DNA from: Clostridium sp. AT4 | GTDB lineage: Bacteria; Bacillota; Clostridia; Lachnospirales; Lachnospiraceae | Assembly (NCBI RefSeq): GCF_001517625.2 | Contig: NZ_LN999828.1 | Span: 1,819,960 to 1,883,959 of the forward strand | Direction: 5' to 3' | DNA length: 64,000 bases | Shown: one piece after another, positions 32,298 through 51,887 of the stretch | Position numbering within the stretch: the stretch's first letter is position 1 | Layout: each line of letters starts with the position of its first letter | Translations under genes and position numbers: made by a program | Notes under the pieces: generated by a model | Seen by the model: only the letters and a program-made list of their open reading frames with translations | Told to the model about the DNA's origin: nothing | Database searches by the model: none

Positions 32298-33334
32298 CTC
32301 TTTAATCCTCCATTTCTGTTTTTTGAAAAATACCAGGCTGCCGCTGCGGCCAGTGCAGTAACAACCACGGTTACTGTTGGCCATATCGGACTCTGGGAAT
32401 CCGTATTTTCTTCTGTTTCCTCCTCCGTCTTTTCAACAAATCTGATTTCCGCACATTCCTGTATCTGCTCTTCCGACTCCAATGCAGCCATGGTTTCCGC
32501 AAAATCCCGTTTAAACTGATTCATATCGATTGCTTCTATCGGATACGCTTCCATTTTTTCAGCTCCGTCAATTATGTCCGCCATTTCTTCCAGTTCGCCC
32601 TCTGTAAACACCTCCTGTCCTTCATAACCGTCTATGATATAGGATAACTGGCTGAGAAAACAGGTCTTTGCTCCTTTGTAGCAGTTCCTTACGGAAATTC
32701 GATTGTCCGTGAAGACGACAATCCTGATTACTTCCATGTCATCTGTCTCAATTCCCGCAGCATGCAGCACTTCCAGGAACACCTGCTCCTTCCGATCCAG
32801 CTTTTCTGCGATATTGGAATCTCTGTTCAGATACTCCCCTGTCCTGTAATAATCTCCCGATTCATCAATGAAAATATCCCGTCTGGTGTTCTTTACTTCC
32901 ACGATGAAGGCTGCCTTCGGTGTCAGAATTAGTGCGTCGATTTCCGTACGGATTCCGCTCGACTCCAGCTCCAAGTTATGTAAAGTGCAATGCGGACTCT
33001 TTATGTACTTCAACGCATGGAAGGCCTTCCTCTCCCCTCTGTTTCCGGAAACTTCCGCCTTGATCAGGTTGCTCACAGTCCTGCATCCGACTTTGAACCT
33101 GGCCAGTTCCGCATCCACCACATGCCCACGCTCTTCGTTGAGTCGTTCCAGATGGTACCTTACATCCCATAATTTAAGGTTTCCCTGCCTGGCATGCTCC
33201 TCTCTGTAGGTCAGACCGCCCATCTCTTCCTGCAACAGGAAACATTCCTGTAGGAGCTCATCCTTCCGGTATTTCTGCTTTACAAAACTTTTCATGCTTC
33301 TCAAAATTTCTTCGATTCTTTCTTCCCTGTTCAT
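32294..33334 (-). CDS. NERD-domain protein with C-terminal membrane anchor
   Basis: 346 residues. The middle (about 95-190) is a nuclease-related NERD domain: GERKAFHALKYI, EIDALILTPKAAFIVEVKNTR (acidic residue ... E-x-K catalytic pattern intact). A C-terminal hydrophobic stretch (VTVVVTALAAAAAWYF) then NRNGGLKR forms a membrane anchor with a basic end. ATG 33334 follows AGGAGG; the open frame to 33373 has no site. NERD proteins occur in nucleic-acid processing and defence loci; membrane anchoring is notable. Confidence 0.85.
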   Translation of the reverse strand: MNREERIEEILRSMKSFVKQKYRKDELLQECFLLQEEMGGLTYREEHARQGNLKLWDVRYHLERLNEERGHVVDAELARFKVGCRTVSNLIKAEVSGNRGERKAFHALKYIKSPHCTLHNLELESSGIRTEIDALILTPKAAFIVEVKNTRRDIFIDESGDYYRTGEYLNRDSNIAEKLDRKEQVFLEVLHAAGIETDDMEVIRIVVFTDNRISVRNCYKGAKTCFLSQLSYIIDGYEGQEVFTEGELEEMADIIDGAEKMEAYPIEAIDMNQFKRDFAETMAALESEEQIQECAEIRFVEKTEEETEENTDSQSPIWPTVTVVVTALAAAAAWYFSKNRNGGLKR

Positions 33335-33410
33335 CGTTTTCCTCCTAAAAAATAAGCCGGGGCTGACAGGCAATTCGATTGCACTATCAACTCCGGCTTC
33401 TTCTTGTTTA

Positions 33411-35230: not shown

Positions 35231-35262
35231 AGAAAAACCGTCGAAAATTTCTTTTCGACGGT
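35231..35262 (-). terminator. Terminator of the DISARM-like operon
   Basis: ACCGTCGAAAA/TTTTCGACGGT arms (35237-35262) and a T-run at 35236-35232 on the minus strand, about 85 bp past the vsr stop. Confidence 0.9.
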
Positions 35263-35346
35263 TCTCTGGTATTACTCTATGCTTTATGTTTTGATGTCTG
35301 CCTGTTTTATACCTGGATTCTAAAACTCTCTTTTATTTTGGTCGCA

Positions 35347-35787
35347 TTAGCAATCATCGTCACTCAAAAAAGCTTCAAACACTGCTTCTTCAATTACCCT
35401 GACACATTCATCCGTATTTTTCAATATATCCTTCCCCCAGAACCGAATAACCGTCCATCCACGAAAAAGTAATGCCTTGTTGATTTCATCATCGCGTTCC
35501 CTGTTTCTGGATATTTTTTCAACCCAGAATTCACCGTTATTTCCTCTTTCCAATTGCGGCCTCAGAATTTCCCAGTCTTTACCGTGAAAAAACTCACTGT
35601 CGCAAAAAACGGCTATTTTATATTTGGTCAGGGCAATGTCCGGCTTTCCGGGCAGTGCCGCATAATTTTTCCTGTACCTGTACCCTTTGTTCCAAAGTGC
35701 TTTTCGAAGTGCAAGTTCTATTTTAGTGTCCTTGGAACAGATGCGACGCATATTTTCACTGCGTTCCACGCTTACAGAATCCGACAT
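35347..35787 (-). CDS. vsr: Very short patch repair endonuclease
   Basis: Nicks DNA 5' of the T in T:G mismatches left by deamination of 5-methylcytosine. Family motifs: RRICSKDTKIELALRKALWNKG at 14-35, LPGKPDIAL with catalytic Asp50, CDSEFFHG at 62-69, and FWVEKISRNRERD. 146 residues from ATG 35787 (GGAGGAAAATC before it; a longer open frame to 35850 overlaps the upstream helicase). It is the last gene of an operon that starts with a cytosine methyltransferase, which explains its presence. Could alternatively act as the restricting nuclease. Confidence 0.92.
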   Translation of the reverse strand: MSDSVSVERSENMRRICSKDTKIELALRKALWNKGYRYRKNYAALPGKPDIALTKYKIAVFCDSEFFHGKDWEILRPQLERGNNGEFWVEKISRNRERDDEINKALLFRGWTVIRFWGKDILKNTDECVRVIEEAVFEAFLSDDDC

Positions 35788-35803
35788 GATTTTCCTCCTC
35801 CGA

Positions 35804-37504
35804 TCAACGTTCCCGGACCGCCATGCAGTTAAGAATCGCAGCAAGATCACGTGTCGGTCTTCTGAAATCCCGTTTCCCGACTATTTTCTCCATAAGGTTT
35901 CTGCAGGAATCATTATCCATATCCGTTACCACTTCCAATCGAATCCTTGCCCTTGATGCCCCGACATAAAAAAGTAATCGATCGGACAAAACCGTCCTGT
36001 CCGTAAAATCCACCAGTATTACCGCATCCGCTTCAAGTCCCTTGAATTTTCTGCATGTCGTGAATCGGCATCCTCTGTATCTGCCGTCAACTGTTGCGTT
36101 CTTCATAAAGCTTCTTGCCTCAGTTTCAAGAGTCAGTATCACGATATCATCGATTCCCGATTCTTTCAGTTCATCAATGATCCCGTCAAGAGCTTTGATT
36201 TGCAGTTCCTGCGTCTCGCAAAAATGCATTCTGGGAATCCTGCCTGCAATACCGTGCAGAAACAGCTTATTGCCTAAATCCGGAAGCAGGCTCATGGATG
36301 CCCTGCTTACATTCTCCGTGTTTCGACAGTTACGGTACAGCGTCAGTCTGCAGTCCGCTTTTTCTATCAATTCAGGAAGTCGGTCAGACTGAACTGTCTG
36401 GAGCCGGTCGTAAAACACATAAAACGATGACTGAGAATTTTCCGTTTCCATAACCGCATCACGCAGCAGTTGAAGAATTTCGGTTTTCTCAATTGCATCC
36501 CTGCCAAAATCCTGTCCTTCATCGACTATGACATGTTCATAAGGGAAATTTCCAAACGCAACATAGTCCCTCAGTTTTCTGGCGGCTTTTTCATAATCTG
36601 GAATATCCGTTTTGCACAGACTGCATACATAACCGTCCAGTGTCATAAAATCAATAAAACTGCTTTCATGGCGGGAAACCAGATATTTCCTCAGTTCCGA
36701 ATTGTAACAGAGAAAAAGAACCCTGCTTCCGTCTGATGCATGACGCCGTGCCTTTTCCACCGCAATCAGGGTCTTCCCTGTACCGGCAGCACCGTTAATA
36801 ACGGCTGTTTTCTGTTCCGTGAGGAAATTGAGAATTCCGGCCTGTTCATCCAGCATCCTGTGAAAAACCATATGTTTCAGATCCGTGTCAAACCCGGCCG
36901 GCGGAAATACATTAAACTCAGGACAGAGTATTTCTCTGATAAGTCTGTTGACCTCGTTCTCGGAAAGAACCGTTACGACTCCGGCACGCACATCCAATGA
37001 AAACAGAGTTTCAATGTACGGAAGCGGATCTTCGAGTGCCTCCCTGCCGATTACCATGATACGGTCCGCTTCGGGCGGCATGGAGATGGAATCCAGTTCC
37101 CCTGACGAAAGTGAAGGGAACCACACTCCGTGCAGAAATTTTATCCGTCCGACCAGCCAGCCAAGACTGCTGTTCCCTATCAAACCCATAAGCTTCCATT
37201 TATTCGCCGAAGCCTGATTAAAAGGTCCGCCGTTATGCATGGGGACACCGTTACCGTAACGCCACTCGCCGTCACGGTATGAAACGGCTCCTGCTTTTGC
37301 TTCAAGACAAAGGATCCCCTTTTCTCTGTGAAAAATCACAAAATCCGTCTCACTTTCATGGACAGTTCCGTTTTTTACCTTTGTAATCCTGAAGGAATGA
37401 AAAACCATGTATTCATCTGGAAGTTTTTTAAGTGCTTCAAACATGATATCCTCAAGACTTCCCTCCGGAAACTGACATGGTTTTTCGGGAATCATTACAG
37501 CCAT
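35804..37504 (-). CDS. NERD-UvrD-type helicase-nuclease of the DISARM-like locus
   Basis: 566 residues. NERD nuclease domain at about 15-140 with an intact catalytic set (Asp54, Glu68-x-Lys70). A superfamily 1 helicase/ATPase follows: Walker A GAAGTGKT at 238-245, Walker B VDEGQD around 327-332, and late motifs ASRARIRLEVVT. Protein of this layout (NERD plus UvrD-like) occurs in defence loci. It occupies the slot where class 2 DISARM loci carry DrmC, a phospholipase D-family protein that is not found here. Starts at ATG 37504, two bases from the drmB stop. Confidence 0.88.
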   Translation of the reverse strand: MAVMIPEKPCQFPEGSLEDIMFEALKKLPDEYMVFHSFRITKVKNGTVHESETDFVIFHREKGILCLEAKAGAVSYRDGEWRYGNGVPMHNGGPFNQASANKWKLMGLIGNSSLGWLVGRIKFLHGVWFPSLSSGELDSISMPPEADRIMVIGREALEDPLPYIETLFSLDVRAGVVTVLSENEVNRLIREILCPEFNVFPPAGFDTDLKHMVFHRMLDEQAGILNFLTEQKTAVINGAAGTGKTLIAVEKARRHASDGSRVLFLCYNSELRKYLVSRHESSFIDFMTLDGYVCSLCKTDIPDYEKAARKLRDYVAFGNFPYEHVIVDEGQDFGRDAIEKTEILQLLRDAVMETENSQSSFYVFYDRLQTVQSDRLPELIEKADCRLTLYRNCRNTENVSRASMSLLPDLGNKLFLHGIAGRIPRMHFCETQELQIKALDGIIDELKESGIDDIVILTLETEARSFMKNATVDGRYRGCRFTTCRKFKGLEADAVILVDFTDRTVLSDRLLFYVGASRARIRLEVVTDMDNDSCRNLMEKIVGKRDFRRPTRDLAAILNCMAVRER

Positions 37505-37505
37505 T

Positions 37506-39848
37506 TCACTTCATCCCCTTAATGATTTTCTCTACCGTTTCCGTATATCCGTCCGGTCCGTAAATGCATTTTATTCCTGCTTTTTCCGCAACATCCCTGC
37601 TTTTTTCCTGTCCGAAAGAAAAATACATTATTTCCTGATCAGGCCAGTAATAATCGCAGTGATGTTCCCCTCCGTCTGCCGGCGTCACGAATTTTACATC
37701 CATGACGGGCATTCTCCTGCCGTCAAACAGTCCGTTATCCATAAGCTGTCCGGCAAATTCATGTTCGCCTTTCGTCTCTGCAAACTGGAGAATGTCGGAC
37801 AGTACAGCCGTCCAGTCTTCTCCTCTCATGTCCGTTCCTGCCATCATGACAATGTTTCCCGTCCCGCATTCCTCTTTTTTCTTATTTGTTTCCGGAGCCT
37901 TTTTTTCGCATGCTTTCCATCCGACATTTCCGTACAGCTGCTCATGGAAAAATCCGAGCCTTTTATTTTCATATGTACCGACAACCACGCCTCTGTCAAG
38001 AAACACATTGAACTCCTCACAGCAGGTTTCCGGAAGAAGGCCGCAGGAATAACAGGCGGCAAGATTTAATGAATCCCGTCCCTGTCCCTTGCTCAGAGAA
38101 CATACCGGATCATTTGAACAGGTAACCGCGGACTCAACAGCCCTTCTGTATATGTTGGGGAACGCATCGTATCTTCCCTGACGCACAAGTCCTCCGAGCG
38201 TTCCTTCGGAATCACCGCTGGCCGTATAAATCAGAATACCCGCCATTTCCTTTCCGTCGGCAGCATCTCCGCAATAAATTCGTTCCTTCAATGAAGATAT
38301 GTTATACCCGCATTCAAAACTCAACTGCTTTATGAACAGATGGGAAATTGTATGAAGGAGGAGAAATTTACCCGAAACCGTTCTCGGGTTCTGACTTCCA
38401 AGGAATGAATTATTATAATTTTCCTGCAGGGTACGCACGCGCTTTTCAAGATCATCATTCCCGCTTCTCCATGCATCTATCGCGTCGCCGTCAAACTCAA
38501 TAAAGATTCCTTCCCCATATACATTGTAACCCGGATACCAGTCCGTTTCCTCTGCCTTGACGGAAACGAATCTGTTTGACCCCGTTCTGATCATGGAGGC
38601 CGAAAACGGTTCCATTCTTGAAAATCCGAGAAGGACCTGAACTTCCCTGATTTTTTCAATCAGCGACACTCCCTTTATATACGGAATATTGTATTTAGAT
38701 ATATCCGTCTCAGTTCGTTTAAAATCGCTGTATGCATCCGTATTCTCCACGGACGACCTTCCGGAAAGGGCATCATATTCCGTTGCACGGTATTCAATGC
38801 TTCCGGTATCATAATTTTTCTCGTTTCTGGAAAGCATCTTTCGTTCCAGAATCTCCCTGACCTGCTTCGGATCACATCCAATATTTGCAGCAATCCGCTC
38901 TGAATAATCATTTACAACCGACAGAATATTCTCTTCCTGAAGCTGAGCGGGCATACCCTTGAGCCCCCGTATGGTTTTAACCGCGTTTCGGAATTCGTCG
39001 TACAGACTGCTGTCTTCAATCCTGTTGTTGATAATGTCCGAAAATGGGGGGATCACGAGCGAACTTGCCGTCACCGGAAAATATACGGACGAGCTTCCCC
39101 GCTGCAGCACCTTTGGATAGAGACCACAGTTTTTTTCACGTTCCCCCTTCCAAGGCTGTCCTCCTTCACATGTAAAATTATATCTTCCAGGGTATTTCTC
39201 ATCCAGTCTTTCAAACTCTCCGTCATTAAACGCTCCCAAAAGTGTGGCGGATGCGCCGCATTCACATTTTACACTCAGACCTTCCAGGCCCTCGGACGCA
39301 ACCGGACTGGTAGTAAATTTAAGCTGTGGATTCCCGCATACTTCCCTGGCTCCTCCGAAACTCTTTGCGTGAGTCCACTTTACCCATGGGAAGTCATTAA
39401 TATGTCCGTACTGGCATACCGTCACGATTCTCGCCACCACAAGTTCCACACGATCCGTCGGACAACGAAGTACCCTGCTCATGTTCTGATTATTTACCTT
39501 TTCGTTTTCCTTGGCCTTACTGTTGAATTCGGCAATCCAGCGCGACAGAGGCTGAAATTTTCTGCATTTCGGACAGAAATACCATTCGGGAAAACGGGCA
39601 TACGCGATTCCGTCACCGTTTTTTCCGCCCTTTGGCATACCGAAATATCTTACTCCCAGAGACTTCTCAAGGCGTTCATCATGGATATGCACAACCTGAT
39701 CCTGCCAATATTCCGGAGCCGCAGTCATAAGCGTCTGCGAGGGAAAATCCACCATTGCGCCGACACCGTACTGGAGTACCGCCTGCGCCGCACGCACTGA
39801 GTGAGAGGTGGCATTCAGTCTGATTTTTGTAACCTGTTTCATGCTCAT
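37506..39848 (-). CDS. drmB: DISARM protein DrmB (DUF1998)
   Basis: 780 residues. DUF1998 motifs: cysteines in FCPKCRKFQPL and in the C-terminal ACYSCGLLPETCCEEFNVFLDRG, and a conserved LLLHTISHLFIKQLSFECGY helix (about 530). The first third has RFPEWYFCPKC and ARIVTVCQYGHINDFPW. ATG 39848 overlaps the drmA stop (ATGA). DrmB forms a heterodimer with DrmA and is a core component of DISARM. Confidence 0.93.
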   Translation of the reverse strand: MSMKQVTKIRLNATSHSVRAAQAVLQYGVGAMVDFPSQTLMTAAPEYWQDQVVHIHDERLEKSLGVRYFGMPKGGKNGDGIAYARFPEWYFCPKCRKFQPLSRWIAEFNSKAKENEKVNNQNMSRVLRCPTDRVELVVARIVTVCQYGHINDFPWVKWTHAKSFGGAREVCGNPQLKFTTSPVASEGLEGLSVKCECGASATLLGAFNDGEFERLDEKYPGRYNFTCEGGQPWKGEREKNCGLYPKVLQRGSSSVYFPVTASSLVIPPFSDIINNRIEDSSLYDEFRNAVKTIRGLKGMPAQLQEENILSVVNDYSERIAANIGCDPKQVREILERKMLSRNEKNYDTGSIEYRATEYDALSGRSSVENTDAYSDFKRTETDISKYNIPYIKGVSLIEKIREVQVLLGFSRMEPFSASMIRTGSNRFVSVKAEETDWYPGYNVYGEGIFIEFDGDAIDAWRSGNDDLEKRVRTLQENYNNSFLGSQNPRTVSGKFLLLHTISHLFIKQLSFECGYNISSLKERIYCGDAADGKEMAGILIYTASGDSEGTLGGLVRQGRYDAFPNIYRRAVESAVTCSNDPVCSLSKGQGRDSLNLAACYSCGLLPETCCEEFNVFLDRGVVVGTYENKRLGFFHEQLYGNVGWKACEKKAPETNKKKEECGTGNIVMMAGTDMRGEDWTAVLSDILQFAETKGEHEFAGQLMDNGLFDGRRMPVMDVKFVTPADGGEHHCDYYWPDQEIMYFSFGQEKSRDVAEKAGIKCIYGPDGYTETVEKIIKGMK

Positions 39849-42800
39849 AAACCCCTCTCCTCCTTCCATTCAATAATGCTTCCGGGAACCATGACATCCA
39901 CATTTCTCATGGAGGTCATGGTTTCAAAAGCCGGATCCTCCCTGAATGTACCGAATGTTTTCAAAAGCCGTTCCCCTGGTCCGTCAGGTCCATTGACCAT
40001 GAATTTCTTACCGTACCAGAAACCTTCTTCGGCATTCTCGGCCAGATCTTCCCATTTATCAATAATCTCCTTTATTTCGGAACGGATTGCATTCGCATCA
40101 TCTTCCATGTTCGGATTGATTCTGCGGTTAACATCCGTACAGCGCTTAACCATAAAATCCGTAATTTCATTCACTGATTCCTCATAATCTTTTTTTCGGA
40201 ATCCCGCGGCACCGTCTTCCGCACTCAGGGATTTTACGGAAAGCCTCAGATATGCAATGATTACGGCATGAAGCGCCCTCCTTCTGGCAGGAATCGAAAA
40301 CGGCGTTGCCCCCGTGGGTTCCACATGTCTGTAGAATGACTCGTGATAAGGCCTGAACTGCTCGTAATGGGACCGGTCACGGCTTTTCCCACCGTCATAC
40401 ATAATAAACGCGACACCGGGATATTCACGCCCGACACGGCTTGATGCCTGGATGTACTCACTTGTGAGTTTCGGCTGTCCGACAAGAAGCATGACATTCA
40501 GTCTCGCCACGTCAATGCCCACGGAAATCATATTGGTTGCGAGAAGCACATTGCACGGATAAACATGATTTTTCATTCCTTCCGCCGAATAACGGACTTT
40601 TTCCAGTTTGTCCAGCGTGCGGTTCAGTTCCGTCGTGGTTACACGGCTTGTCAGTTCATCGGCTGTTCCGATGCTTCTGACCTCCGAACTGGATTTCAGT
40701 CGGTAGCACATCCGCTTCATAAAGTCTTTTACGTCATCATCCACCATTGTGGCCGCCTTGCCCAGATCCTTCAAACTGTTGAAATAGGCAGTCAGTGTCC
40801 AAAGCTTGTCCCTGACTTCATCGGACAGATCCATGTCCTTGGCTTTCTGCAGCATTGCAGCCATTGCACGGATCTCCATCATAGCCTTTGTCTTGCCGGA
40901 CGGCATGAGTCCGACATATTTCCGTCCAAACACACCGTTTTCATAATTAATTTTTGACTCCCTTGCAAAGAAGGAGTCTTCCGCATCAAGTGCGGGATGA
41001 GGAAACTGGCTGACACCTCTGTCGTACAGTGCGGCACACTGCTCGACCGCTCTTCGTATCGTGGCGGTTGAAGCCACGATCTTCGTAATGTTTCCTTTTT
41101 TACGGCACAGGGCATCAATCGTACTTTCATACAGTCCCACCATCGTTCCAAGCGGACCGGAAATCAGATGCAGCTCATCCTGAATAATGAGTTCCGGTGC
41201 CCTGTTACCGTTTCCAAGGGCAAAGAAATTTCCGATCTGTTCATTCCATGGAAGCATTGCGAACTTGTCCACCGTGCCGAAAAGCAGTGTGGGCGGTTCC
41301 CTGTACAGTTCCTCATCCACAACCTGAACCGGAAGACCTCCGCCAAACTGACAGCTTTGCCGAGTGCAGAAAAGTGCAAATCGGTTCCCTCGCATTTTAT
41401 ATCCGAATTGGCCACGGTTTTTCTTTCCGTCCTTCTCCGGAACAAGCCTGGTTCCACACCACGGACACTTCAGAACCTGAAATTTATTATATTTTTCCTT
41501 TGCATATTCCAGATTATATGATGCCTTTGAATTCAGATTCTTTAAATTCTGCGCTGCCCCTTTGTTATCGTTCGGCGTATGATCTCCGCCGATCCAAAGC
41601 CCGATGGTAATCGGCATTTTACCAAGAGGATACGCCGGATAATCATGTTTTTTTGATTCGCTGTCCCTTCTGATGACCTCACAGGCACAAATCAGTGTCG
41701 ATGCCCTGGTAAACTGCTGTGCGGCCAGAAGACGGAGCGTATATCTCATGATAACCGTCGTCCCCCCACTCTCATTCGGATAGCGGAATCGTCTGTAGAA
41801 TATTGTCATGGCCGTAAGTCCCAGATAAGCTTCCGTCTTTCCGCCGCCGGTAGGAAACCAGATCAGATCGACCAACTCCCTGTCCGCGGATTTCTCATCG
41901 GTTACGGATACAATGTCAAGAAGCATAAATGCAAGCTGAAACGGTCTCCATGCATACCTGTCCTCTGGGAATTCCATGTCCGCTGTTCTGTAATCAATCC
42001 CTTGGAGAACATTCGATAACTCCCTGTCCTCCGGAAAGGTTGCAGGCCATTTTCTCTGAACAACCAGCTGGACTCTCTGCATAAACATGGCACGATTGGC
42101 AAGCTGAAAAGCGTTCCATGCCTGGTCGTCGCTTTCAAGAATCTTAATTCCGGCACGCATCCTTTCGCATGCAGCCCGACAGCCGTTAAGATTTTTCTTC
42201 GCTGCGGCGGAAAAACAACCGTCCAGCGTATCCGCACGATTCGCAAGCTCATCAATCCAGACTGAATAAGCACCTACGAGGCTGTCTAAATTGCTGATTT
42301 TTTCCTTCCTGTCCGTATCGTCAAGATCAGAAAGATACTTCATGGACAGTGTCCTGGGATTTACGCCGCAATCCCCAGGCAAATTAAAGTCCATGGAAGG
42401 TACTTCAAATTCCGGGAAAAAGTCATTTCTGATACTTCCGTTTCCTTTTTCATCAATATCCCAGTTTACCGCCGTTCCGAGCCCTGTCCCATAAACATGC
42501 TTGTTCCGATACTGAAGTTCCAGGGACTGTTCCTCGGCATCAAGGATATCAAAATCCGCATTGCCCGTATATTCCGCAAACACAAAATTATTGTTGGCGG
42601 ATTCAACCTTCAGTTCCGGCTGAAATATGCAGCTTTCCCCCGCAGCATGACCGCTCTTTTTATTTATTACCATGACCGTCAGGGACGTGTTTCCGTTTTC
42701 CATCCGTCTTCTGAGTGCGGTAATGCCAACCAGGTCGGAATCAAGATTTTCAGCAGAATCCGCATAATTTGAATCCCCAAATGCAATAACAATGTCTTTC

Positions 42801-43531
42801 AGCTCATGCGGTTCCCTGACATATCCGCTTTTCAGCTGATCCGCAAGTTTATACATGTTGTCAATAATATGATCGTCATCCGTGTCCAGCCTGTCCGATT
42901 CCTTCAGGAGTCTGACATCCTTGCGATTAAATCCTCTAAGCATTTTAAGAGTTCTTTCGGAAGCATCATATGTTACATATCCCGAAGCAGCTTCTGGGAC
43001 ACGGTAATCATCCGGTAGCATGGGCACAAACGGAATACGGCAGTCTTCAATTCTGGAACCTCTGTAAGTTCCGTACTTCAGCGAGACATGGATCCTGTCC
43101 GTATTTCCCTTAACAAAAAAGGAAATTCCAAAGGAAGACGGCATGTTCTGTGCCGCAAGACTGACTTCCTCATCAAGGTTATCCTCGGAATCAGGATCAT
43201 CGTCATCTTCTTCTTCCTGTTTTTTTTCTTCCTTTATTTCCCTGGCGGTATAATCAGAGCTTTCAATTTTCTCTTCCGTTACCGATATGTCGTCCACCGT
43301 TTCTTTTCCTTCTTCTTCCTCCTCCCCGCTGTCAACATCCCCGTTATCGGCTTTCATTTTTCTTCCTTGCGGGAAAAGTATCCCAATGGAATACCTTTTT
43401 TCGGGAGAAGCCGTTATAAGCTCGTGTTCCGCATCCGGTACCGAAACTTCGGATCCCGGACCGAGCAATTCTTTTTTTATTAAGACAATAAACTCGTCCC
43501 TTGCACCGATTATTTCGTTCTTAATCCCCAT
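39845..43531 (-). CDS. drmA: DISARM helicase DrmA
   Basis: 1228 residues, large superfamily 2 helicase-like protein. Acidic low-complexity region at about 65-120. Walker A FPTGGGKT around 559-566, motif II IIQDELHL near 780, motif VI AFQ-type IQASSRVGREYPG near 1055, and a zinc-like pair CPWCG/CTRQSC between 690 and 730. DrmA with DrmB binds and translocates on single-stranded DNA ends in known systems. Gene order and the exact partners identify it. Start ATG 43531. Confidence 0.93.
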   Translation of the reverse strand: MGIKNEIIGARDEFIVLIKKELLGPGSEVSVPDAEHELITASPEKRYSIGILFPQGRKMKADNGDVDSGEEEEEGKETVDDISVTEEKIESSDYTAREIKEEKKQEEEDDDDPDSEDNLDEEVSLAAQNMPSSFGISFFVKGNTDRIHVSLKYGTYRGSRIEDCRIPFVPMLPDDYRVPEAASGYVTYDASERTLKMLRGFNRKDVRLLKESDRLDTDDDHIIDNMYKLADQLKSGYVREPHELKDIVIAFGDSNYADSAENLDSDLVGITALRRRMENGNTSLTVMVINKKSGHAAGESCIFQPELKVESANNNFVFAEYTGNADFDILDAEEQSLELQYRNKHVYGTGLGTAVNWDIDEKGNGSIRNDFFPEFEVPSMDFNLPGDCGVNPRTLSMKYLSDLDDTDRKEKISNLDSLVGAYSVWIDELANRADTLDGCFSAAAKKNLNGCRAACERMRAGIKILESDDQAWNAFQLANRAMFMQRVQLVVQRKWPATFPEDRELSNVLQGIDYRTADMEFPEDRYAWRPFQLAFMLLDIVSVTDEKSADRELVDLIWFPTGGGKTEAYLGLTAMTIFYRRFRYPNESGGTTVIMRYTLRLLAAQQFTRASTLICACEVIRRDSESKKHDYPAYPLGKMPITIGLWIGGDHTPNDNKGAAQNLKNLNSKASYNLEYAKEKYNKFQVLKCPWCGTRLVPEKDGKKNRGQFGYKMRGNRFALFCTRQSCQFGGGLPVQVVDEELYREPPTLLFGTVDKFAMLPWNEQIGNFFALGNGNRAPELIIQDELHLISGPLGTMVGLYESTIDALCRKKGNITKIVASTATIRRAVEQCAALYDRGVSQFPHPALDAEDSFFARESKINYENGVFGRKYVGLMPSGKTKAMMEIRAMAAMLQKAKDMDLSDEVRDKLWTLTAYFNSLKDLGKAATMVDDDVKDFMKRMCYRLKSSSEVRSIGTADELTSRVTTTELNRTLDKLEKVRYSAEGMKNHVYPCNVLLATNMISVGIDVARLNVMLLVGQPKLTSEYIQASSRVGREYPGVAFIMYDGGKSRDRSHYEQFRPYHESFYRHVEPTGATPFSIPARRRALHAVIIAYLRLSVKSLSAEDGAAGFRKKDYEESVNEITDFMVKRCTDVNRRINPNMEDDANAIRSEIKEIIDKWEDLAENAEEGFWYGKKFMVNGPDGPGERLLKTFGTFREDPAFETMTSMRNVDVMVPGSIIEWKEERGL

Positions 43532-43534
43532 AAG

Positions 43535-46132
43535 CTATACTCCTCCTTCAAGATCAATCGGACGGTTTGTCATATAAGCCGGCACGGACTGATCCGTTTT
43601 TACTATTGTCTCAATGCGAAGTACCACAGCCATTGTATCAAGTCTTTCCCGTATTTCTGCCGGAATAATACCGCTGACGGACTTTTCGCCTTCCAGACTG
43701 CCGATGATTGCCGCGCCAAGTTCCTGCAGTATGACTCTGCGGACACGTTTAACATCACGGCATGCCTCAAAATAATCGTTGGCATGATCAAACATTTCAG
43801 CATTTTCCGTCAAAAGCGAAATCTGTTCCAGATATTCCACTTTTTGCGGACCTACTGTACGCGTGTCTTCATTCAGCCAGTTTTTAATGGTGGCAGGCTG
43901 AACATTGACTCCGTTCGCAATCATTTTCTTCACAATCCGTTTCGGTGTTTCTCCGGTACGCTCCATATACTGTGAAAGATCTTTTTTCCACTGCCGGGAC
44001 ATGGCATATCTTTCCGAAAATTCTTTGTTAATCCTTTCGGTACGGATCAGTTCATTCAGTATGTAATCCACGATGTCCCTGGTTTCATTGTCCCTGTTCA
44101 GAAATACCATGCTGTCTCCGACTTTCAGGTCATCCGCTTTCCTCTGTTCGACCTCGCTCTTTTCCTCATTCAGGACATATGCCTCATAATACTTCGTCAG
44201 CATTGCACCTTCTCCATCCTCAAAATGCACGAGTGTTGCCACATCCGAAAGCGGTGCCGAAGCATCACTTCCGCCCTGTCTGACCACCGCATCAAATTTC
44301 ACGGCAAGAACCTCTTCCGCATATCGGACGATTTCTTCATCCACCCTGTTAATTTCCTCCACTTCCTTCAGAAGTTCGTCCTCCTCCGGCAAATCATTTT
44401 CCTCTCCGATTATCTGCTGTCTTGAATTAAACAATCGATCCCGTTCGGATCCCTTCCTGCTTTTTGCCTTGAACACTGCTTCCTCTGGCTTATAAAGCAG
44501 CACCGTGATTTTGGGTGCAGCCATACAGCGAAAGACATCAAAACGCCTGCCGGAAATATTGCCGACAATCAGAATATCGTCATAAATACGGGTTCCGTCA
44601 AAACGCTTTACGGGCACAATATCTATTCCGGAAGCATTCTGCTTAAAATCATGGAGAACAAAATCCCACATAATATCCGCATAATATGCATTCGGAACAA
44701 CAATTGCCATCTTCTTTTTCCGTCGCATTTCCACATACTCTCTTACAAGTTCCCTTTTCGGAGAACCGTCATATCTGACAAAAAGCAATTTTGTAAGTAT
44801 ATCCGCAATTTTCTTTCCGCTGCCCTTCAAATTATCCGGCAGGTTTTGCAGCCGTTCTTCTAGTTCTCCCAACATTTTCATGGGTTCTTCAGCCTGAATC
44901 TTTCCTTCTGTAATTTCCTTTTCCATCTCATCCAATGAAAACGGCGCCGTCATGAACAGCTTCATAAGGGACCATGCCGGAAATATAATACTGTTCTTCT
45001 CCTCATCATCCAATTCATCCCTTTTTATCAGTCCCACAGCCGTTTTAAAATTCCTGTAATCCTGCCAGCTGATTTCCCCCGGAATTACCTGTGTAACGAT
45101 TTCCCTGTCAATAACAGCGCCTGCCTGTCGATCCAGTTCCAGTGTCAGGCTGTTTTTTTCTGTTGGTGGGAGCGTATTTTCAAGAAGAAAATCCTTCGTG
45201 CAGGCAAAAACACCCGATTCTTCATGTTCAGCTACCAGGCTTTCCCCACAGGAAAGATCCATGCCTCCGCACACGAAAGAAAAACCAAGTGTTTCCCGAT
45301 TCATTGCCTGGTTGATTTCCATGCTTTCATTACCCTGTTCAATCAGGGAATTTCCGCACACAAATATTCCCATATGCTCATTTCCTTCTGCATTCCATGT
45401 CATGTCGAGTCCGACGGAAATCTTTGAAGTAAATTTCAGCATTGCTTCATTTTTTCCTGTATTTCCGCCATAAGGATACTCATTTCCGTCCGTAAAATAG
45501 GATGCCGTTATCAAATCCAGAATGCTGATTTCACTGTCACCGTACCTGACTGTCAGGCCTTTCATGTATCTGTCCGCCCTGTACCGATCCATTACAAAAA
45601 TAACAGAAGTATCCGTAATCCCCGGAATATCCTTTTCTTCGCAGTTTAAAATTTCCGACAGAAATCTTTTTCTGGCACCGTTCTGTGAGCGGATTCCTCT
45701 CCCATCATATCTCTCAGACAATCCCTGATACGGAACAATCAAAGCCCAGCCTCTTCTTCCGACTCTTTTCGTTTTTTCTTTTCCCTGACCAATTACAGCC
45801 CATTCCTTACCGTCAGAATCAACTTCTATTCCTTTGAATTCTCCACGTTCTTTCCCGTAAAGTACCTTATCTCCAATCGGGATCGTTCGTACTATATCTT
45901 CAACGCTCGTATTACTTCCCATGATCACTGCAAAAGCTGCCCATACGATCGCAATGGCATCAAAACACGGAGAGCCAAGATGAAGCACAATACTTCCGCT
46001 GTTTTCCGTTTTTTCAGCCTCCCTTGACAGAAATTTCAAAAAGGAGCGGAGAATAAGTTCCCTGGAAATGAGCCGGCCATCCAGGCAGATGTCGCACTTC
46101 TCAAGGCACCTGTTCAGACCCTCGGTATCCAT
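43535..46132 (-). CDS. drmE: DISARM-associated protein DrmE
   Basis: 865 residues, upstream of drmA, the position of drmE in class 2 DISARM. It contains TSVIFVMDRYRADRYMKGLTV, PVKRFDGTRIYDDILIVGN and a C-terminal helical region with a helix-turn-helix-like section (GETPKRIVKKMIANGVNVQPA). No enzyme motif is evident; DrmE's role is not settled in known systems though it is required there. Identification is by length, location and sequence character. Start ATG 46132. Confidence 0.8.
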   Translation of the reverse strand: MDTEGLNRCLEKCDICLDGRLISRELILRSFLKFLSREAEKTENSGSIVLHLGSPCFDAIAIVWAAFAVIMGSNTSVEDIVRTIPIGDKVLYGKERGEFKGIEVDSDGKEWAVIGQGKEKTKRVGRRGWALIVPYQGLSERYDGRGIRSQNGARKRFLSEILNCEEKDIPGITDTSVIFVMDRYRADRYMKGLTVRYGDSEISILDLITASYFTDGNEYPYGGNTGKNEAMLKFTSKISVGLDMTWNAEGNEHMGIFVCGNSLIEQGNESMEINQAMNRETLGFSFVCGGMDLSCGESLVAEHEESGVFACTKDFLLENTLPPTEKNSLTLELDRQAGAVIDREIVTQVIPGEISWQDYRNFKTAVGLIKRDELDDEEKNSIIFPAWSLMKLFMTAPFSLDEMEKEITEGKIQAEEPMKMLGELEERLQNLPDNLKGSGKKIADILTKLLFVRYDGSPKRELVREYVEMRRKKKMAIVVPNAYYADIMWDFVLHDFKQNASGIDIVPVKRFDGTRIYDDILIVGNISGRRFDVFRCMAAPKITVLLYKPEEAVFKAKSRKGSERDRLFNSRQQIIGEENDLPEEDELLKEVEEINRVDEEIVRYAEEVLAVKFDAVVRQGGSDASAPLSDVATLVHFEDGEGAMLTKYYEAYVLNEEKSEVEQRKADDLKVGDSMVFLNRDNETRDIVDYILNELIRTERINKEFSERYAMSRQWKKDLSQYMERTGETPKRIVKKMIANGVNVQPATIKNWLNEDTRTVGPQKVEYLEQISLLTENAEMFDHANDYFEACRDVKRVRRVILQELGAAIIGSLEGEKSVSGIIPAEIRERLDTMAVVLRIETIVKTDQSVPAYMTNRPIDLEGGV

Positions 46133-46152
46133 ATCATCACCTCTCCTCTCCG

Positions 46153-47568
46153 TTAAACATTTACTGCAAATTCGCCCTTTTTGTTTTCAAGTTCATATCC
46201 GTCTCTTTCTTTCCTCACACAGCCTGCCCTTTCCATTCTGTGAAGAAAATTATATGCGGAAACCTGAGACACGCCGAGAATGTTGCGGATATCTTCCACC
46301 CTGAACTCATTTGAAATTCCCACTTCGGAAACAATCCGACAGCATTTCTCTATGGTCTTCGGTTTGACTTCCTCTTTCAATTCCTTCTCAAGATTTATGA
46401 ACATTCTAAGTTGCGGCCCCGGAACGGCGTATCTCCTTCTCTCTTTTTCCGAAAAAGCATCCGTCATGTCCTTTACACACTGCTTTATGAACAGTGCCAT
46501 TTCTTCTATAAGCGGAATTGATACGGAATTGCCAAACTGTTTAAATTTCTGCTGATTCGATATTCCCTCTGGAAATGAAAAACCTTCATTTCCGTTCTCA
46601 TCCAAAAATGCATAACCGATGAACCCCTGCAGACGTCCCCATTCTTCCGGCGTCATTGTTCTGATGTATTCATTGTTAATCGGCGTTTGCTTTCTTCCTA
46701 CCATCATGCCGGCACATCTTCTTCCGTTAACCGGATCGTAAATCAGATTTCTCTCCTTACCCGAACCTCCCGTAGCCAGTAAAGTGCTGGAAATGGGATT
46801 TTCGACACCTTCGGCATTGACAATCCGATATCCGAATCCGTTTCCATTTTTTCTCTGTCTGGCCTTATGATTTTGTAATGTCTCCAAAAAACCGGAAGCA
46901 AGAAAAAAGCTGTCCGGCACATATTCATCAAGAATGTCCCTTACTGAGCCAAAAATAACCCTATTGTTTCTTACCGGCGTACTGTCCGGAATAAGCTGCA
47001 GGTGTTCTCCGAAATAGTCCCTGCTGAATGCAACTATGTATACTCTTGGTCTGTTCTGCGGAAGACCGAAGTTCTTTGTATTTCTGATAAAGGAAGACTT
47101 ATCGTATATCAGACTTCCGTCCTCTCCCCTTGTAACACCTACCACATGGTAGTTCAATTCATTTTCCAGTGTGTTTAAAATGATTTTAAACGTATTTCCC
47201 CCGTCATGACTTACCAGATTTTCAACATTTTCCAGAAAAACCACTTTCGGCATGGTTTGTTCTATAATTCTAGCGATGTAAAAAAAGATTGTTCCTTTTG
47301 TTGTATCCTTAAATCCTTCCCGTAAACCGATCCGACTGAAAGCCTGGCATGGAAATCCGGCAAGGAGTACATCATAATCCGTCCTGCAGACCGTCTTTCT
47401 GAATTCATCATATGTCACATCATTTTCTGCATTATCGCCAAACAAATGCTCATAAGTCCGACAGGCATATTCGTCTTTTTCCGCTGACAGGACATTTTCA
47501 AATTCACCGGCCAATTCAAAACCTCTCCTTATTCCGCCGATTCCGCAGCACAAATCTATCATACGCAT
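46153..47568 (-). CDS. drmMII: DNA cytosine-5 methyltransferase (DrmMII) with C-terminal winged helix
   Basis: 471 residues. C5-cytosine methyltransferase motifs: I DLCCGIGGIRRGF (5-17), IV GFPCQAFSRIG with nucleophile Cys74, VI LENVENL (112-118), VIII NRPRVYIVAF, IX/X near GNSVSIPLIE. Beyond about 385 there is an added helix-turn-helix/winged domain (EFRVEDIRNILGVSQVSAYNFLHRME, RKERDGYEL). In class 2 DISARM this enzyme marks self DNA. The added domain suggests autoregulation. First gene of the operon; Start ATG 47568. Confidence 0.93.
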   Translation of the reverse strand: MRMIDLCCGIGGIRRGFELAGEFENVLSAEKDEYACRTYEHLFGDNAENDVTYDEFRKTVCRTDYDVLLAGFPCQAFSRIGLREGFKDTTKGTIFFYIARIIEQTMPKVVFLENVENLVSHDGGNTFKIILNTLENELNYHVVGVTRGEDGSLIYDKSSFIRNTKNFGLPQNRPRVYIVAFSRDYFGEHLQLIPDSTPVRNNRVIFGSVRDILDEYVPDSFFLASGFLETLQNHKARQRKNGNGFGYRIVNAEGVENPISSTLLATGGSGKERNLIYDPVNGRRCAGMMVGRKQTPINNEYIRTMTPEEWGRLQGFIGYAFLDENGNEGFSFPEGISNQQKFKQFGNSVSIPLIEEMALFIKQCVKDMTDAFSEKERRRYAVPGPQLRMFINLEKELKEEVKPKTIEKCCRIVSEVGISNEFRVEDIRNILGVSQVSAYNFLHRMERAGCVRKERDGYELENKKGEFAVNV

Positions 47569-47647
47569 TTTATCTGTCTCCTCTACCCATTTTTTCCTCC
47601 AACCGTTTATAACGGCTTTTTTCTTAAGAATCAGTAATTCCTATATG

Positions 47648-47678
47648 CAAATTATGATTCCGTTATGGCGATAATTGG
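47648..47678. promoter_or_regulatory. Operator-like inverted repeat in front of drmMII
   Basis: CAAATTAT (47648-47655) and ATAATTGG (47671-47678) form an imperfect 8-bp inverted pair (7 of 8) downstream of the -10 element; a possible site for the methyltransferase's winged-helix domain. Confidence 0.35.
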
Positions 47679-47701
47679 TTTTAACACAAATATTCAAGAA
47701 T

Positions 47702-47710
47702 ATTATATCA
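47702..47710 (-). promoter_or_regulatory. Extended -10 promoter of the DISARM-like operon
   Basis: TGATATAAT (TATAAT at 47707-47702) with only a weak -35. The predicted leader to the drmMII start is about 130 nt. Confidence 0.6.
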
Positions 47711-47793
47711 TAACAATAACTAAATAGAAGAATTTATGTCATTTTTTTCCTATATCCTTCATATATTTACTTTTTCAATACAACTCATAGCAA

Positions 47794-48516: not shown

Positions 48517-48810
48517 TTAAAAATAGCAATATTCCGTTTCCATCAGCACTTTCCTGATCAGCGCTTCTTTACTTAAATTCGGGTACTTCTCAACTAGCGC
48601 ACAAAACTCTTTGTACTGGCCATCTGCACATTTCGTTTCAAAGAAGGTCCACAGCTTTTCTTTTCTCTCCTCTTCTGTTTCTTCTTTATTTCTGATGCAG
48701 TGTATTAAATATCTAAGGTAGGATTCTGCATATCCGATCCCATACCCTTCCTGATGCCAATAAGCATACTGCTCGTCCCATGAGCTGCGGTCGTATTTAT
48801 CCTCAAACAT
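48517..48810 (-). CDS. Small hypothetical protein (97 aa)
   Basis: Starts MFEDKYDRSSWDEQYAYWHQ at ATG 48810, overlapping the preceding ATPase stop by 8 bases. Rich in Tyr/Trp, then helical (LRYLIHCIRNKEETEEERKEKLW). Family not recognised. Conserved placement between the GHKL proteins and the Pth2-like gene would mark it as a partner. Confidence 0.65.
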   Translation of the reverse strand: MFEDKYDRSSWDEQYAYWHQEGYGIGYAESYLRYLIHCIRNKEETEEERKEKLWTFFETKCADGQYKEFCALVEKYPNLSKEALIRKVLMETEYCYF

Positions 48811-50317
48811 CGCCTTCCACCGCCTTCCATTCCTTTTCGTATTCTTCCAGCTGTTTGGCCTCACGCAGCATCTGCAGGGCCATGAGCGTAATCATTTTTC
48901 GAAATGCTTCCGAACCGTCCCCACCAAACTGGTGCATCAGCTCGTGCATATACACTGCCACTGCTTCCGAAAACCGATCCTGTGCGAATAGTTCCACACG
49001 AAGCTGAATCGTCCTTATCTCTTGGCGAACTTTTAGTCCAAAAGAATTTTTCTCTCCTCCTGTCATATCAACCGAAAAAGCGGAACCGGCATTTACCGTT
49101 CGGTTGGTAATGATTCTGCAGTGTGGGAATTGGTTGTAGCAGACATATCCCTTAAAAACAGTTGCGGCAATCCGTTCCAGGATATCCAGATATCTTTGCT
49201 CCTTGAGATTCGCTTCACGAAGCTGCTCATAACCTCCATGCTCCCTGCACAGACTGTCCAGTGAATCAATGCTCAATGTTTCAAAATCGCTAAACACAAT
49301 CCTTCGGTTTCCGAATTCCACGCTTTTTCCAAACCACGCTAAAGCAAGTTTCCTCCGGTTTCCATACTCTTCATCCGGAAAGTCGGCAACCAGGCGGCTT
49401 CCATACTCTTTCCGGAATCTTTCCACTTCCTTACTGTCCTCCGCCACACGACGAATCAGATGGCTGACGGTTTCCTCCCAATCGTAATCCCAACGACCGG
49501 CTTTTGCGGATCGGCTCCATACCCGTTCAAGCACACGAAGGATTCTTCCTGCCGCTTTCGGTGATATCTGGTCAAATACCTCTTTCGAGCAGCGTTTAAT
49601 ATCGTTTTCGTAAAAATGATCCCGTTCCCTTCCTTCTTTTTCGGGACGGTAGGTATGGTTGCACACGATCAGCGGCACGCCCAGGGAAATCCGGTTCAGT
49701 CCTCCTGCATACAATGCACCTCTTTCCTCAAATCGGCTTCCTTTGCTCGGAAGATAAACAGCACAGAAGTCTGTTTCAGCGATTGATTCCAAAAAGTTTG
49801 GATTTTCTCTGTAAAAGTAATCCTCCACAGCCTTTTCACAAAGATCTGCATCCTGTCTGGATACATTCTTCAGTGTAAGCACAGATCCAGCGAGAAACTC
49901 CCGTTCCTCGGTTTCGTAAGCCAGAACCTTCACTTCCGTACCGTCGATCCTGTCCGCTGCTTCCGTCACATGCATTTTCCATTCCCTTGATTCCATTGTG
50001 ATATCCCAGCCATAATCCCGGTAGGCAATCAGGGAAGCGATTTTAAAACCTTCGCCGAATCTTCCCACCTGCATGGGAGTGGGAGTACTTCGTTTGCTCG
50101 ACGCTCCTATACAGGTAAGCCAGTCCATGGAAAAATCCCTGTTAGTCTGCATCCTGAGCGATTTTGTTTCTTCATTGTATGCATAGGAAAAATCCTTCCC
50201 GAACCGATCCGGTCCAACGGCGTCATAAAAATTCTGAACATAATCCCGCATGACCGCGAAAACTGTCCATTTAACCGGATAAGACATGACCAGATTCAGC
50301 TTTTCAATCTGTTGCAT
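48803..50317 (-). CDS. GHKL-ATPase with C-terminal HExxH zinc-peptidase motif
   Basis: 504 residues. N-terminal GHKL (HATPase_c) module: N-box RDYVQNFYDA at 24-33 and G-box GRFGEGFKIAS at 85-95. The C-terminus carries YMHELMHQFGG with HELMH at 458-462, a gluzincin-type zinc-protease signature. Between them is an unassigned region of about 350 residues. Such ATPase-protease fusions are unusual and suggest a conformational switch on a protease, as in some defence systems. ATG 50317 follows GGAGG and overlaps the upstream gene. Confidence 0.82.
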   Translation of the reverse strand: MQQIEKLNLVMSYPVKWTVFAVMRDYVQNFYDAVGPDRFGKDFSYAYNEETKSLRMQTNRDFSMDWLTCIGASSKRSTPTPMQVGRFGEGFKIASLIAYRDYGWDITMESREWKMHVTEAADRIDGTEVKVLAYETEEREFLAGSVLTLKNVSRQDADLCEKAVEDYFYRENPNFLESIAETDFCAVYLPSKGSRFEERGALYAGGLNRISLGVPLIVCNHTYRPEKEGRERDHFYENDIKRCSKEVFDQISPKAAGRILRVLERVWSRSAKAGRWDYDWEETVSHLIRRVAEDSKEVERFRKEYGSRLVADFPDEEYGNRRKLALAWFGKSVEFGNRRIVFSDFETLSIDSLDSLCREHGGYEQLREANLKEQRYLDILERIAATVFKGYVCYNQFPHCRIITNRTVNAGSAFSVDMTGGEKNSFGLKVRQEIRTIQLRVELFAQDRFSEAVAVYMHELMHQFGGDGSEAFRKMITLMALQMLREAKQLEEYEKEWKAVEGDV

Positions 50318-51863
50318 CCGCAGCCTCCTTCCATCGTTTTTCTGCTTTCTTTAACTCCTTCCGGTTTTCATACATCCAACTGCCGAGATAGGTCAAGAGT
50401 ACGGTCATCCGCTCACTCCGGTCCGTCCCGAATGCCCGGAACCGGCCCTTGCAGTATTTTATAAATGTCTCTGGAAAGCAGTCCTCGCTATAATCTTCCG
50501 GCTTAAGGAGGATATTTTCCACTCTGTATTTCCTGGAAATCCTTCCTCGTTTTCTCTTCTGACCATATTCTCTGCTGCAAAACTCCATAGGATTTCTGCT
50601 GTCATCGTTGCCTATCACAATTTTGGGCGGCATCTCATCCTGCCCCAGATTTGCCTGCACAACGGTTTCATAGGCTGCTTCCAATATGGCATCCATTCTT
50701 TCCTGTTTTGCATCCGGAACGGAAAAGACCGTTTGTTCCACATGTTCCCTGTAAGTTTCCAGAAGCGATGGCACACCCAGAAGGCGGAAGATCGGATTTA
50801 CCAGTTGCTCCTTCTTTCCGGAACTCCGATGCCATTCCTTTGCCTGTCTGATTTTACGGTTTTGAGCCGGGTCGGATCCGGTTCTCTCCATATACAGCAA
50901 CGCAGGATAATCTTTGACGAACCGTTCCCGTATCCCATCATCCATTGCCATGTTTCTCACAAGCTGGCAAACCACATAGTACCAGGTATTCAGATCCAAG
51001 GGCCACCGTGATGTCATAACCGGCATTTCCGCCCAATGATTTTTCATGTGCCGGAGCATTTCGTAGGAATCTGTCGGTGTCATGGTGCAGGCTACTTTAT
51101 AGATCAGAGAAGGAATCTCAAACCCGTACATCGTGTTCCGATCCCGTTTTTCGGAATCATATTTCTGCGTTTTGGCAAGAACCACCAACCGGAACGGCAG
51201 GGTTCCTCTGGCAAGGTAACGGTAGTACAAAAGCCCATAGTCCTTCTCCCACCATGCCGAAGGAATCCTCATCTCAGACCGCTCGTACACTGCATAATCT
51301 TCCGTATCCGCCAGGCAGCGGCCAAACAGCGGATTTCCCTGATAAAAAAATTCCAATAGCCCTTCCTGGATTATTCTTTCACGGCTTTTATCGATACCGG
51401 TTACTACCAGACAGGTCTCGCCGTCATCCTCCCGTTCTTCCACCTGATACCCCAACATCCTGGTGTTCTGACCATCTATTTTCTTCGTATAAACCTGAGG
51501 CCGCAGTTTCCAGTTCTGGGATTCCATTATAAAATCACATCCCATCCGTACAAGGCATAAGGCGCACAGCTTGAATCCCTCTCCGTAGTTTCCAACATAC
51601 CCTTCCTGTCCGGTCTTAGTACTTCCTCCGAAATAAGTCAGCCATTCATAGGAAAAGGGATGGTTCTTCGTTTTCATGGTAAGCGTGATGTTACCTGTTT
51701 TATCAACAGTATGATTGTAATCAAACTCCTTATGAAAATTTTCGTATCCGATGCTGTCGTAAAAGTTCTGGATCAAATCCCGCAGAATCCGCCAGAATTC
51801 CCAGTTTACCGGATAATCCATGACCAGATCAAGCGGGACAAGATACCGATTTCTTTTATCCAT
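50304..51863 (-). CDS. Paralogous GHKL-ATPase without HExxH
   Basis: 519 residues from ATG 51863 (GGAGGG before it). Same opening as the next gene: LVMDYPVNWEFWRILRDLIQNFYDS with N-box RDLIQN at 28-33, and GNYGEGFKLC at 91-100. The region matching the protease site reads MTVLLTYLGSWMYENRKEL with no HExxH, so it is probably a non-proteolytic partner. The pair most likely arose by duplication and may form a heteromer. First gene of the operon. Confidence 0.8.
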   Translation of the reverse strand: MDKRNRYLVPLDLVMDYPVNWEFWRILRDLIQNFYDSIGYENFHKEFDYNHTVDKTGNITLTMKTKNHPFSYEWLTYFGGSTKTGQEGYVGNYGEGFKLCALCLVRMGCDFIMESQNWKLRPQVYTKKIDGQNTRMLGYQVEEREDDGETCLVVTGIDKSRERIIQEGLLEFFYQGNPLFGRCLADTEDYAVYERSEMRIPSAWWEKDYGLLYYRYLARGTLPFRLVVLAKTQKYDSEKRDRNTMYGFEIPSLIYKVACTMTPTDSYEMLRHMKNHWAEMPVMTSRWPLDLNTWYYVVCQLVRNMAMDDGIRERFVKDYPALLYMERTGSDPAQNRKIRQAKEWHRSSGKKEQLVNPIFRLLGVPSLLETYREHVEQTVFSVPDAKQERMDAILEAAYETVVQANLGQDEMPPKIVIGNDDSRNPMEFCSREYGQKRKRGRISRKYRVENILLKPEDYSEDCFPETFIKYCKGRFRAFGTDRSERMTVLLTYLGSWMYENRKELKKAEKRWKEAADATD

Positions 51864-51887
51864 ATCGTCCCTCCTTTCCATCCTTTC

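Follow-up and report, generated by a model that had tools for sequence, protein, structure and literature searches.

The window considered here is a stretch of 64,000 nucleotides from Clostridium sp. AT4 (contig NZ_LN999828.1, positions 1,819,960 to 1,883,959 of the forward strand), and our subject is an operon within it that is related to the defence island system associated with restriction–modification (DISARM). It comprises six genes, all on the - strand, in the order drmMII, drmE, drmA, drmB, NERD-UvrD and vsr. The locus is a real, recurrent DISARM variant; the same six genes are found in its closest relatives, which come from Brotaphodocola catenula (locus L030) and from a Lachnospiraceae metagenome-assembled genome (L031). 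The order and positions of the genes had been proposed in a sequence-only reading of the window and are borne out by profile searches, apart from the start of vsr, which is shifted to 35787. The features are as follows.

46153..47568, - strand: drmMII-like C5-cytosine DNA methyltransferase, 471 aa (Pfam PF00145, PADLOC DrmMII, M.HhaI structures)
43535..46132, - strand: drmE-family gene, 865 aa (NF038316, PF24957 (DrmE_C), model and fold searches)
39845..43531, - strand: drmA, superfamily 2 (SF2) helicase, 1228 aa (PADLOC DrmA, 7s9v_A, NF038325)
37506..39869, - strand: drmB, 787 aa (NF038324, 7s9v_B); a more internal start is possible
37509..37847, - strand: C-terminal tail of DrmB, residues 675-787, proposed docking module for NERD-UvrD (tail profile, co-occurrence, model)
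35804..37504, - strand: NERD-UvrD nuclease-helicase, 566 aa (Pfam NERD and UvrD_C_2, PADLOC RTasNERD-Hel, residue check)
35347..35787, - strand: vsr, 146 aa from the ATG at 35787 (TIGR00632, solved Vsr 1cw0, ribosome site)
35233..35266, - strand: intrinsic terminator of the operon, a 15-pair stem followed by a T run; convincing
47713..47742, - strand: putative promoter-like site upstream of drmMII, 9/12 matches

The operon and its products

Adjacent genes of the operon are separated by 1-20 bases, the exception being the drmB open reading frame (ORF), which overlaps drmA by 25 bases. The start of vsr is better placed at 35787 than at 35850, from which a 167-aa ORF would be read, as the ATG at 35787 lies behind a strong GGAGGAGG-type ribosome site; with this start the overlap between vsr and the NERD-UvrD gene vanishes. 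Of the single promoter and single terminator that had been claimed for the operon, the terminator stands. The promoter does not: 20 promoter-like sites were observed in the region against 20.7 in shuffles, so that the site upstream of drmMII is not above chance, and it was rejected as evidence.

The components that make up the core of DISARM are present. DrmA is recognized by its PADLOC profile (3.9e-216) and by the solved DrmA structure 7s9v_A (2.8e-154); its score of 944.8 bits with the DrmAS equivalog NF038325 is about 5 under the cut-off of 950, and the DrmA proteins of L030 and L048 likewise fall below this cut-off (934 and 936 bits). DrmB is a separate DUF1998/MZB protein, with 435 bits for NF038324 (cut-off 240) and an MZB match above cut-off, and the match to the solved DrmB 7s9v_B covers only residues 24-641 of its 787. 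The methyltransferase matches Pfam DNA_methylase PF00145 over residues 1-359 (1.3e-66), the PADLOC DrmMII profile (3.6e-54) and M.HhaI structures, and carries approximately 100 additional C-terminal residues.

Class 2 DISARM consists of drmMII, drmE, drmA, drmB and drmC. The window resembles it in that a single operon encodes DrmA, DrmB, a DrmE-family protein and a C5 methyltransferase; it differs in that its DrmE lies below the DISARM_DrmE cut-off, DrmC, the phospholipase D (PLD) nuclease of class 2, was not found, DrmB is tailed, and NERD-UvrD and vsr are added. The earlier assignment to class 2 thus stands as far as a DrmE-kind locus without DrmC is concerned, but not for a canonical DrmE. 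The window protein scores 753 bits with the NCBIfam model DrmE_fam NF038316 (cut-off 80) and has a DrmE_C domain at its C-terminus (PF24957, 2.6e-14), whereas it reaches only 56.8 bits with the canonical equivalog, for which the cut-off is 250. The DrmE_fam cut-off was exceeded in one genome among 145 relatives, in four among 391 from the class and in six among 398 from the phylum, the window's genome being counted each time; a 14-genome control gave one match, below cut-off, in Haloferax volcanii. The canonical DrmE model (NF038323) had matches in four of the 398 genomes of the phylum, including the window's own, with none over cut-off. Searches with the window DrmE in plasmids, phages and viral contigs gave no result, nor did a single-protein scan of genome contigs.

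Residues 1-565 of DrmE (44438-46132) are predicted, by a structural model and by fold searches, to adopt an SF2 helicase fold with tandem RecA-like domains. At the predicted P-loop, placed from sequence and secondary structure, the Walker A GK[ST] is seen in none of the 51 aligned sequences. DrmE is therefore predicted to be an SF2 helicase fold lacking the Walker A lysine, that is, an inactive helicase, and it is possibly the counterpart of DrmD.

The NERD-UvrD protein matches Pfam NERD (3.1e-8) and UvrD_C_2 (1.2e-9), both above the Pfam cut-offs. The NERD residues D54, E68 and K70 and the Walker motifs, which the sequence-only reading had described as intact, are indeed present in the window protein. 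In a family alignment of 48 proteins, built from the collected loci, the three NERD residues are found in 37, eight proteins having gaps there and three having other letters, and the Walker A lysine is kept in 47.

The DrmB tail and its nuclease-helicase partner

When genome contigs were scanned with an alignment of DrmA, 79 loci were obtained; eight fetched loci and the window brought the total to 88 before filtering. Two copies (L040 and L075, of L015 and L016), one locus without a DrmA hit (L027) and seven with a partial DrmA were dropped, leaving 78 tabulated loci; five of these lack a complete DrmB, so that 73, the window included, could be compared for DrmB, and the next gene was readable in 72. 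The near copies L032/L033, L048/L058 and L063/L072 were retained in the counts. Gene content was read from profiles built from the collected loci and run over their ORFs. It should be noted that the loci were gathered via DrmA or DrmE, and that the set informs only on loci that have one of them; within it, the constant part consists of DrmA, DrmB and mostly DrmE, while the methyltransferase and the nucleases vary.

DrmB is at least 765 aa long in 17 of the 73 loci, which corresponds to a C-terminal tail of approximately 115 residues. In all 17, a NERD-UvrD gene lies directly downstream on the same strand, the two ORFs being 1-4 bases apart or overlapping by 4-67. The 55 loci with a short DrmB and a readable next gene behave differently, 51 being without a NERD-UvrD gene directly downstream; in the other four, the gene encodes a UvrD protein without the NERD residues (L090, L099 and L100) or the DrmB, of 701 aa, has a partial tail (L078). 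The co-occurrence of NERD-UvrD with DrmA and DrmB in the absence of DrmC, which had been put forward as a check, thus recurs in a subgroup, and the association with NERD-UvrD is supported as a stable feature of that subgroup. One locus, L105, combines a DrmA that stands apart from the window's group on the DrmA tree with a NERD-UvrD inside that group and a tailed DrmB; its sequences suggest that recombination between drmA and drmB may have occurred.

One match of the tail profile was unexpected (3e-21): it covers the C-terminal 100 residues of a single-gene helicase of 1586 aa in L128, which itself matches Druantia DruE3 (542 bits). A NERD-UvrD ORF starts three bases behind the helicase gene. 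A second tailed single-gene helicase (tail 1.8e-22), homologous to the first and with a NERD-UvrD ORF one base behind, is found in L184, which was reached via a NERD-UvrD alignment search of 124 genomes of the order to which L128 belongs. The C-terminus of the helicase in L130 gives a marginal tail match (E 0.13). When 51 NERD-UvrD rows were placed on a tree, one starred clade of 20 members took in all 19 proteins with a tailed partner (17 from DISARM, together with L128 and L184); the twentieth, L129, also lies behind a DruE-like gene, whose ORF is without the C-terminal part. Loci of the window's kind are marked by a tailed YprA-type protein together with one NERD-UvrD clade, a pairing not seen in the earlier reading. 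We read the DrmB tail and this clade as a possible cassette common to DISARM and Druantia-like systems. The tail itself is modelled with a pLDDT (predicted local distance difference test score) of 83. There is a weak indication that it may be a degenerate nuclease fold, the candidate being PD-(D/E)xK, whose core runs helix, three strands, helix and strand and carries catalytic residues; hhalign gave no match between the tail and NERD-UvrD.

It is suggested by this pairing that the tail docks NERD-UvrD on the DrmAB motor, and the view of the locus as a DrmE-kind, class-2-like DISARM with NERD-UvrD as its built-in nuclease-helicase effector is one that we hold with moderate confidence. Two observations call for caution. 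Of the 78 loci, 19 have a gene matching the NERD-UvrD profile directly upstream of drmA, and no tailed locus is among them, which weighs against a tight link; 15 of the 51 short-DrmB loci without NERD-UvrD downstream carry such a gene there, and the encoded proteins are mostly 21-28% identical to that of the window. Furthermore, the tail changes only two or three times on the DrmA tree, which is too few for a test of association.

Alternatively, NERD-UvrD might be a mobile defence gene that works by itself and only accompanies DISARM, the DrmB tail having some other role, such as DNA contact. Besides the upstream genes just described, evidence for this includes the names of the nearest PADLOC profiles, RTasNERD-Hel (7.3e-53, described as DRT) and C3a187, both of which belong to other systems, and the company kept by more distant family members. 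Outside the clade, NERD-UvrD genes occur behind untailed DISARM genes (L148, L150 and L151) or Druantia-like genes (L130 and L141), behind C3a193 (L147) or TmtA (L149), near a RecQ/DpdF-like helicase (L131), or without a recognized YprA-type partner in the fetched stretch (L132/L133, L135 and L138); the sequence-only reading had regarded NERD-UvrD found far from DISARM as grounds for refutation, and these distant relatives answer to that in part. Against this reading, NERD-UvrD lies directly behind drmB and on the same strand in every one of the tailed loci, and it recurs together with the tail in a different system in L128 and L184. On balance, we consider independence unlikely.

Some further members of the family should be mentioned. 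L148, L150 and L151 derive from a viral contig collection and have drmB (with drmA in L148 and L151) and NERD-UvrD directly downstream. In L137, a plasmid of Mycoplasmopsis arginini, a NERD-UvrD relative is annotated in three pieces, and a DUF1998 fragment at the start of the record resembles the Druantia-like helicase of L128. A search of phages with the L128 NERD-UvrD gave no result.

DrmC, Vsr and the methyltransferase

It had been proposed that NERD-UvrD took the place of DrmC and that Vsr might be a further nuclease effector. In favour of a replacement, NERD-UvrD lies directly behind drmB, which is the position of drmC in the two annotated class 1 loci, L143 and L145. In the window, no DrmC was detected by a PLDc_2 search of the genome or among 72 ORFs, which gave no hit to the HKD pattern and a best E of 0.39 with a DrmC profile. 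The seven PLDc_2 matches elsewhere in the genome share the contig of the window but lie over 200 kb away from it; the nearby drmC that would have spoken against the earlier proposal was not found. Two of these proteins have two HKD motifs each; the DrmC profile matches one at E 0.17 and leaves the other unmatched at E 1.

The same profile, built from two annotated DrmC proteins, found no further member at E <0.1 among 1,802 ORFs in 146 loci, although a DrmC far diverged from the two seed sequences could escape detection. Both controls belong to class 1 and come from annotated cyanobacterial loci; the set included no canonical class 2 counterpart that has DrmC. The HKD pattern recovered both control DrmC proteins and the two PLD proteins of the window's genome; in DrmA loci it gave three hits, none DrmC-like, namely a 786-aa ORF upstream of the L026 operon and hits in L052 and L059 that look like chance. 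Scans of neighbouring ORFs covered 133 of 179 unassigned ORFs of at least 180 aa in DrmE-bearing loci, with the best 25 of 260 and 159 families considered, so that a rare DrmC is possible; HNH_2 matches in seven of the 133 hint that HNH nucleases are a partner in some loci. DrmC was thus not found in loci with NERD-UvrD or in those without, and its absence is therefore not tied to NERD-UvrD. In a study of another DISARM, DrmC is described as dispensable and often missing (Bravo et al. 2022, PMC9142583). The idea that a vacated DrmC slot was taken by NERD-UvrD is not supported in this form, and we consider replacement improbable.

With regard to Vsr, the window protein is recognized by TIGR00632 (123.5 bits against a cut-off of 97.9, scored on the 167-aa ORF) and by the solved Vsr 1cw0 (1.3e-16), and it retains the catalytic residues. 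At the catalytic positions, which correspond to E25, D51, H69 and D97 in the E. coli protein, the residue is kept in 44, 43, 44 and 45 of 45 domains, respectively; the zinc ligands of the E. coli protein are replaced in most of the 45, the window included. When vsr genes were counted within 6.5 kb of drmA, 20 of 58 DrmE-bearing loci had a fusion of vsr with the methyltransferase gene, 19 had a separate vsr and 19 had none. Twelve of the 17 tailed loci have vsr; it directly precedes drmMII in ten of them and follows NERD-UvrD in the window and L030. Thus vsr is tied to the methyltransferase gene, usually adjoining or fused to it, which fits repair of deaminated 5-methylcytosine, and on this placement and fusion Vsr was rejected as a stand-in for DrmC. 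The likeness is to very short patch repair pairs, in which vsr adjoins or is fused to a C5 methyltransferase gene and the catalytic positions are kept, the window differing from E. coli in the replaced zinc ligands. The fusions, in L016, L043, L046-L056, L058, L062, L063, L065, L068, L072 and L079, open or close DISARM-like operons that, if they have drmB, lack NERD-UvrD immediately after it; the Vsr motif of L046 looks degenerate.

That the locus is mainly a restriction–modification system of methyltransferase, Vsr and nucleases, to which DrmA, DrmB and DrmE are accessory, is very improbable: in L038 (6073-7140) and L076 (2487-3599), drmMII and drmE do have a gene for an HpaII restriction endonuclease between them (PF09561, 6e-114 and 3e-71), so that the methyltransferase module of such a DISARM can be a full restriction–modification set, but there is no HpaII gene in the 20-base interval of the window, and it is DrmA, DrmB and mostly DrmE that are constant among the loci, which were gathered via DrmA or DrmE.

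The surroundings of the operon contain several other genes. Approximately 2 kb downstream lies a second NERD-domain gene (32294-33373, 359 aa; PF08378, 1e-14), whose product has, judged by eye, a C-terminal membrane segment. Upstream are two adjacent, similar-looking large ORFs of 504 and 525 aa (48803-51881), of which that at 48803-50317 has no Pfam or PADLOC family match, and an ORF pair at 52062-53308 that resembles an IS3-type transposase, a label that comes from reading the sequence only.

Relation to known systems and a possible mechanism

Class 1 DISARM is represented by the Serratia DrmAB structure 7s9v, to which the window DrmA is similar in two stretches (best 271-771) and DrmB over residues 24-641; the class 1 plasmid loci L143 and L145 have drmD and drmC where the window has DrmE, NERD-UvrD and vsr. 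The Druantia III-like loci L128 and L184 share with the window a helicase with the same C-terminal tail followed by a NERD-UvrD of the same clade, whereas one large DruE-like gene replaces drmA and drmB; the fetched stretches of these loci gave no DrmE, methyltransferase or Vsr hit. L142, on a plasmid of L. plantarum, has a methyltransferase, an unnamed 801-aa protein that no NCBIfam model matched, and DrmA-like and DUF1998 genes, with no annotated DrmC.

ARMADA, TALON and BRIGADE also combine YprA-type helicases with Vsr-type or NERD nucleases nearby, to judge from the accessible part of Bell et al. 2025 (PMC12458937). There, in contrast to the window, Vsr is fused to the YprA helicase of ARMADA, and NERD is reported for TALON. 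TALON is characterized by an ARMADA-like YprA helicase with TPR-cold-shock and TBP genes; the window has a DrmA-type helicase and a separate DrmB, and none of the six operon genes matches the TPR-cold-shock or TBP families in PADLOC, Pfam or NCBIfam. The same part of that paper describes ‘many uncharacterized DISARM-like’ classes and makes no mention of NERD-UvrD or a separate vsr in DISARM, and the CoCoNuT paper mentions a DISARM-like association of McrBC (PMC11090510). Literature on DISARM with Vsr, NERD or UvrD yielded nothing closer than PMC12458937, subscription papers being mostly unsearchable, so that a prior report is possible. What appears to be new here is the tail and NERD-UvrD cassette that DISARM shares with Druantia-like systems, as suggested by sequence comparison, and the model-based prediction of DrmE as a dead helicase.

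A scheme can be envisaged in which the methyltransferase would mark host DNA and Vsr would repair the T:G mismatches that arise from deamination of its 5-methylcytosines. The motor formed by DrmA and DrmB would load on DNA that is unmarked and has a free strand, as published for another DISARM (PMC9142583). DrmE, if it is the inactive SF2 helicase that is predicted, may have a structural role or act in sensing. NERD-UvrD would be held at the motor by the DrmB tail, which is perhaps a degenerate nuclease-like domain, and there it would unwind and cut foreign DNA. In its fullest form, the proposal is of a plug-in cassette, consisting of the degenerate nuclease-like tail and its dedicated NERD-UvrD, that is transferred whole between DISARM and Druantia-like systems, the tail recruiting the cutting arm, within a DISARM subtype that has an inactive-SF2 DrmE; this we put forward tentatively, as a possibility somewhat short of probable.

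If this cassette reading is true, what the tail recruits would be the means of cutting, which in other DISARM systems is missing or supplied by the host. A branch of DISARM that encodes a conserved nuclease-helicase of its own, and whose DrmB tail may dock it, is amenable to point mutants and tail deletion, and the predicted dead SF2 helicase provides a testable idea for DrmE, a protein on which little literature was found. As a Druantia-like helicase ends in the same tail, motors of this type may acquire effectors in this way more generally.

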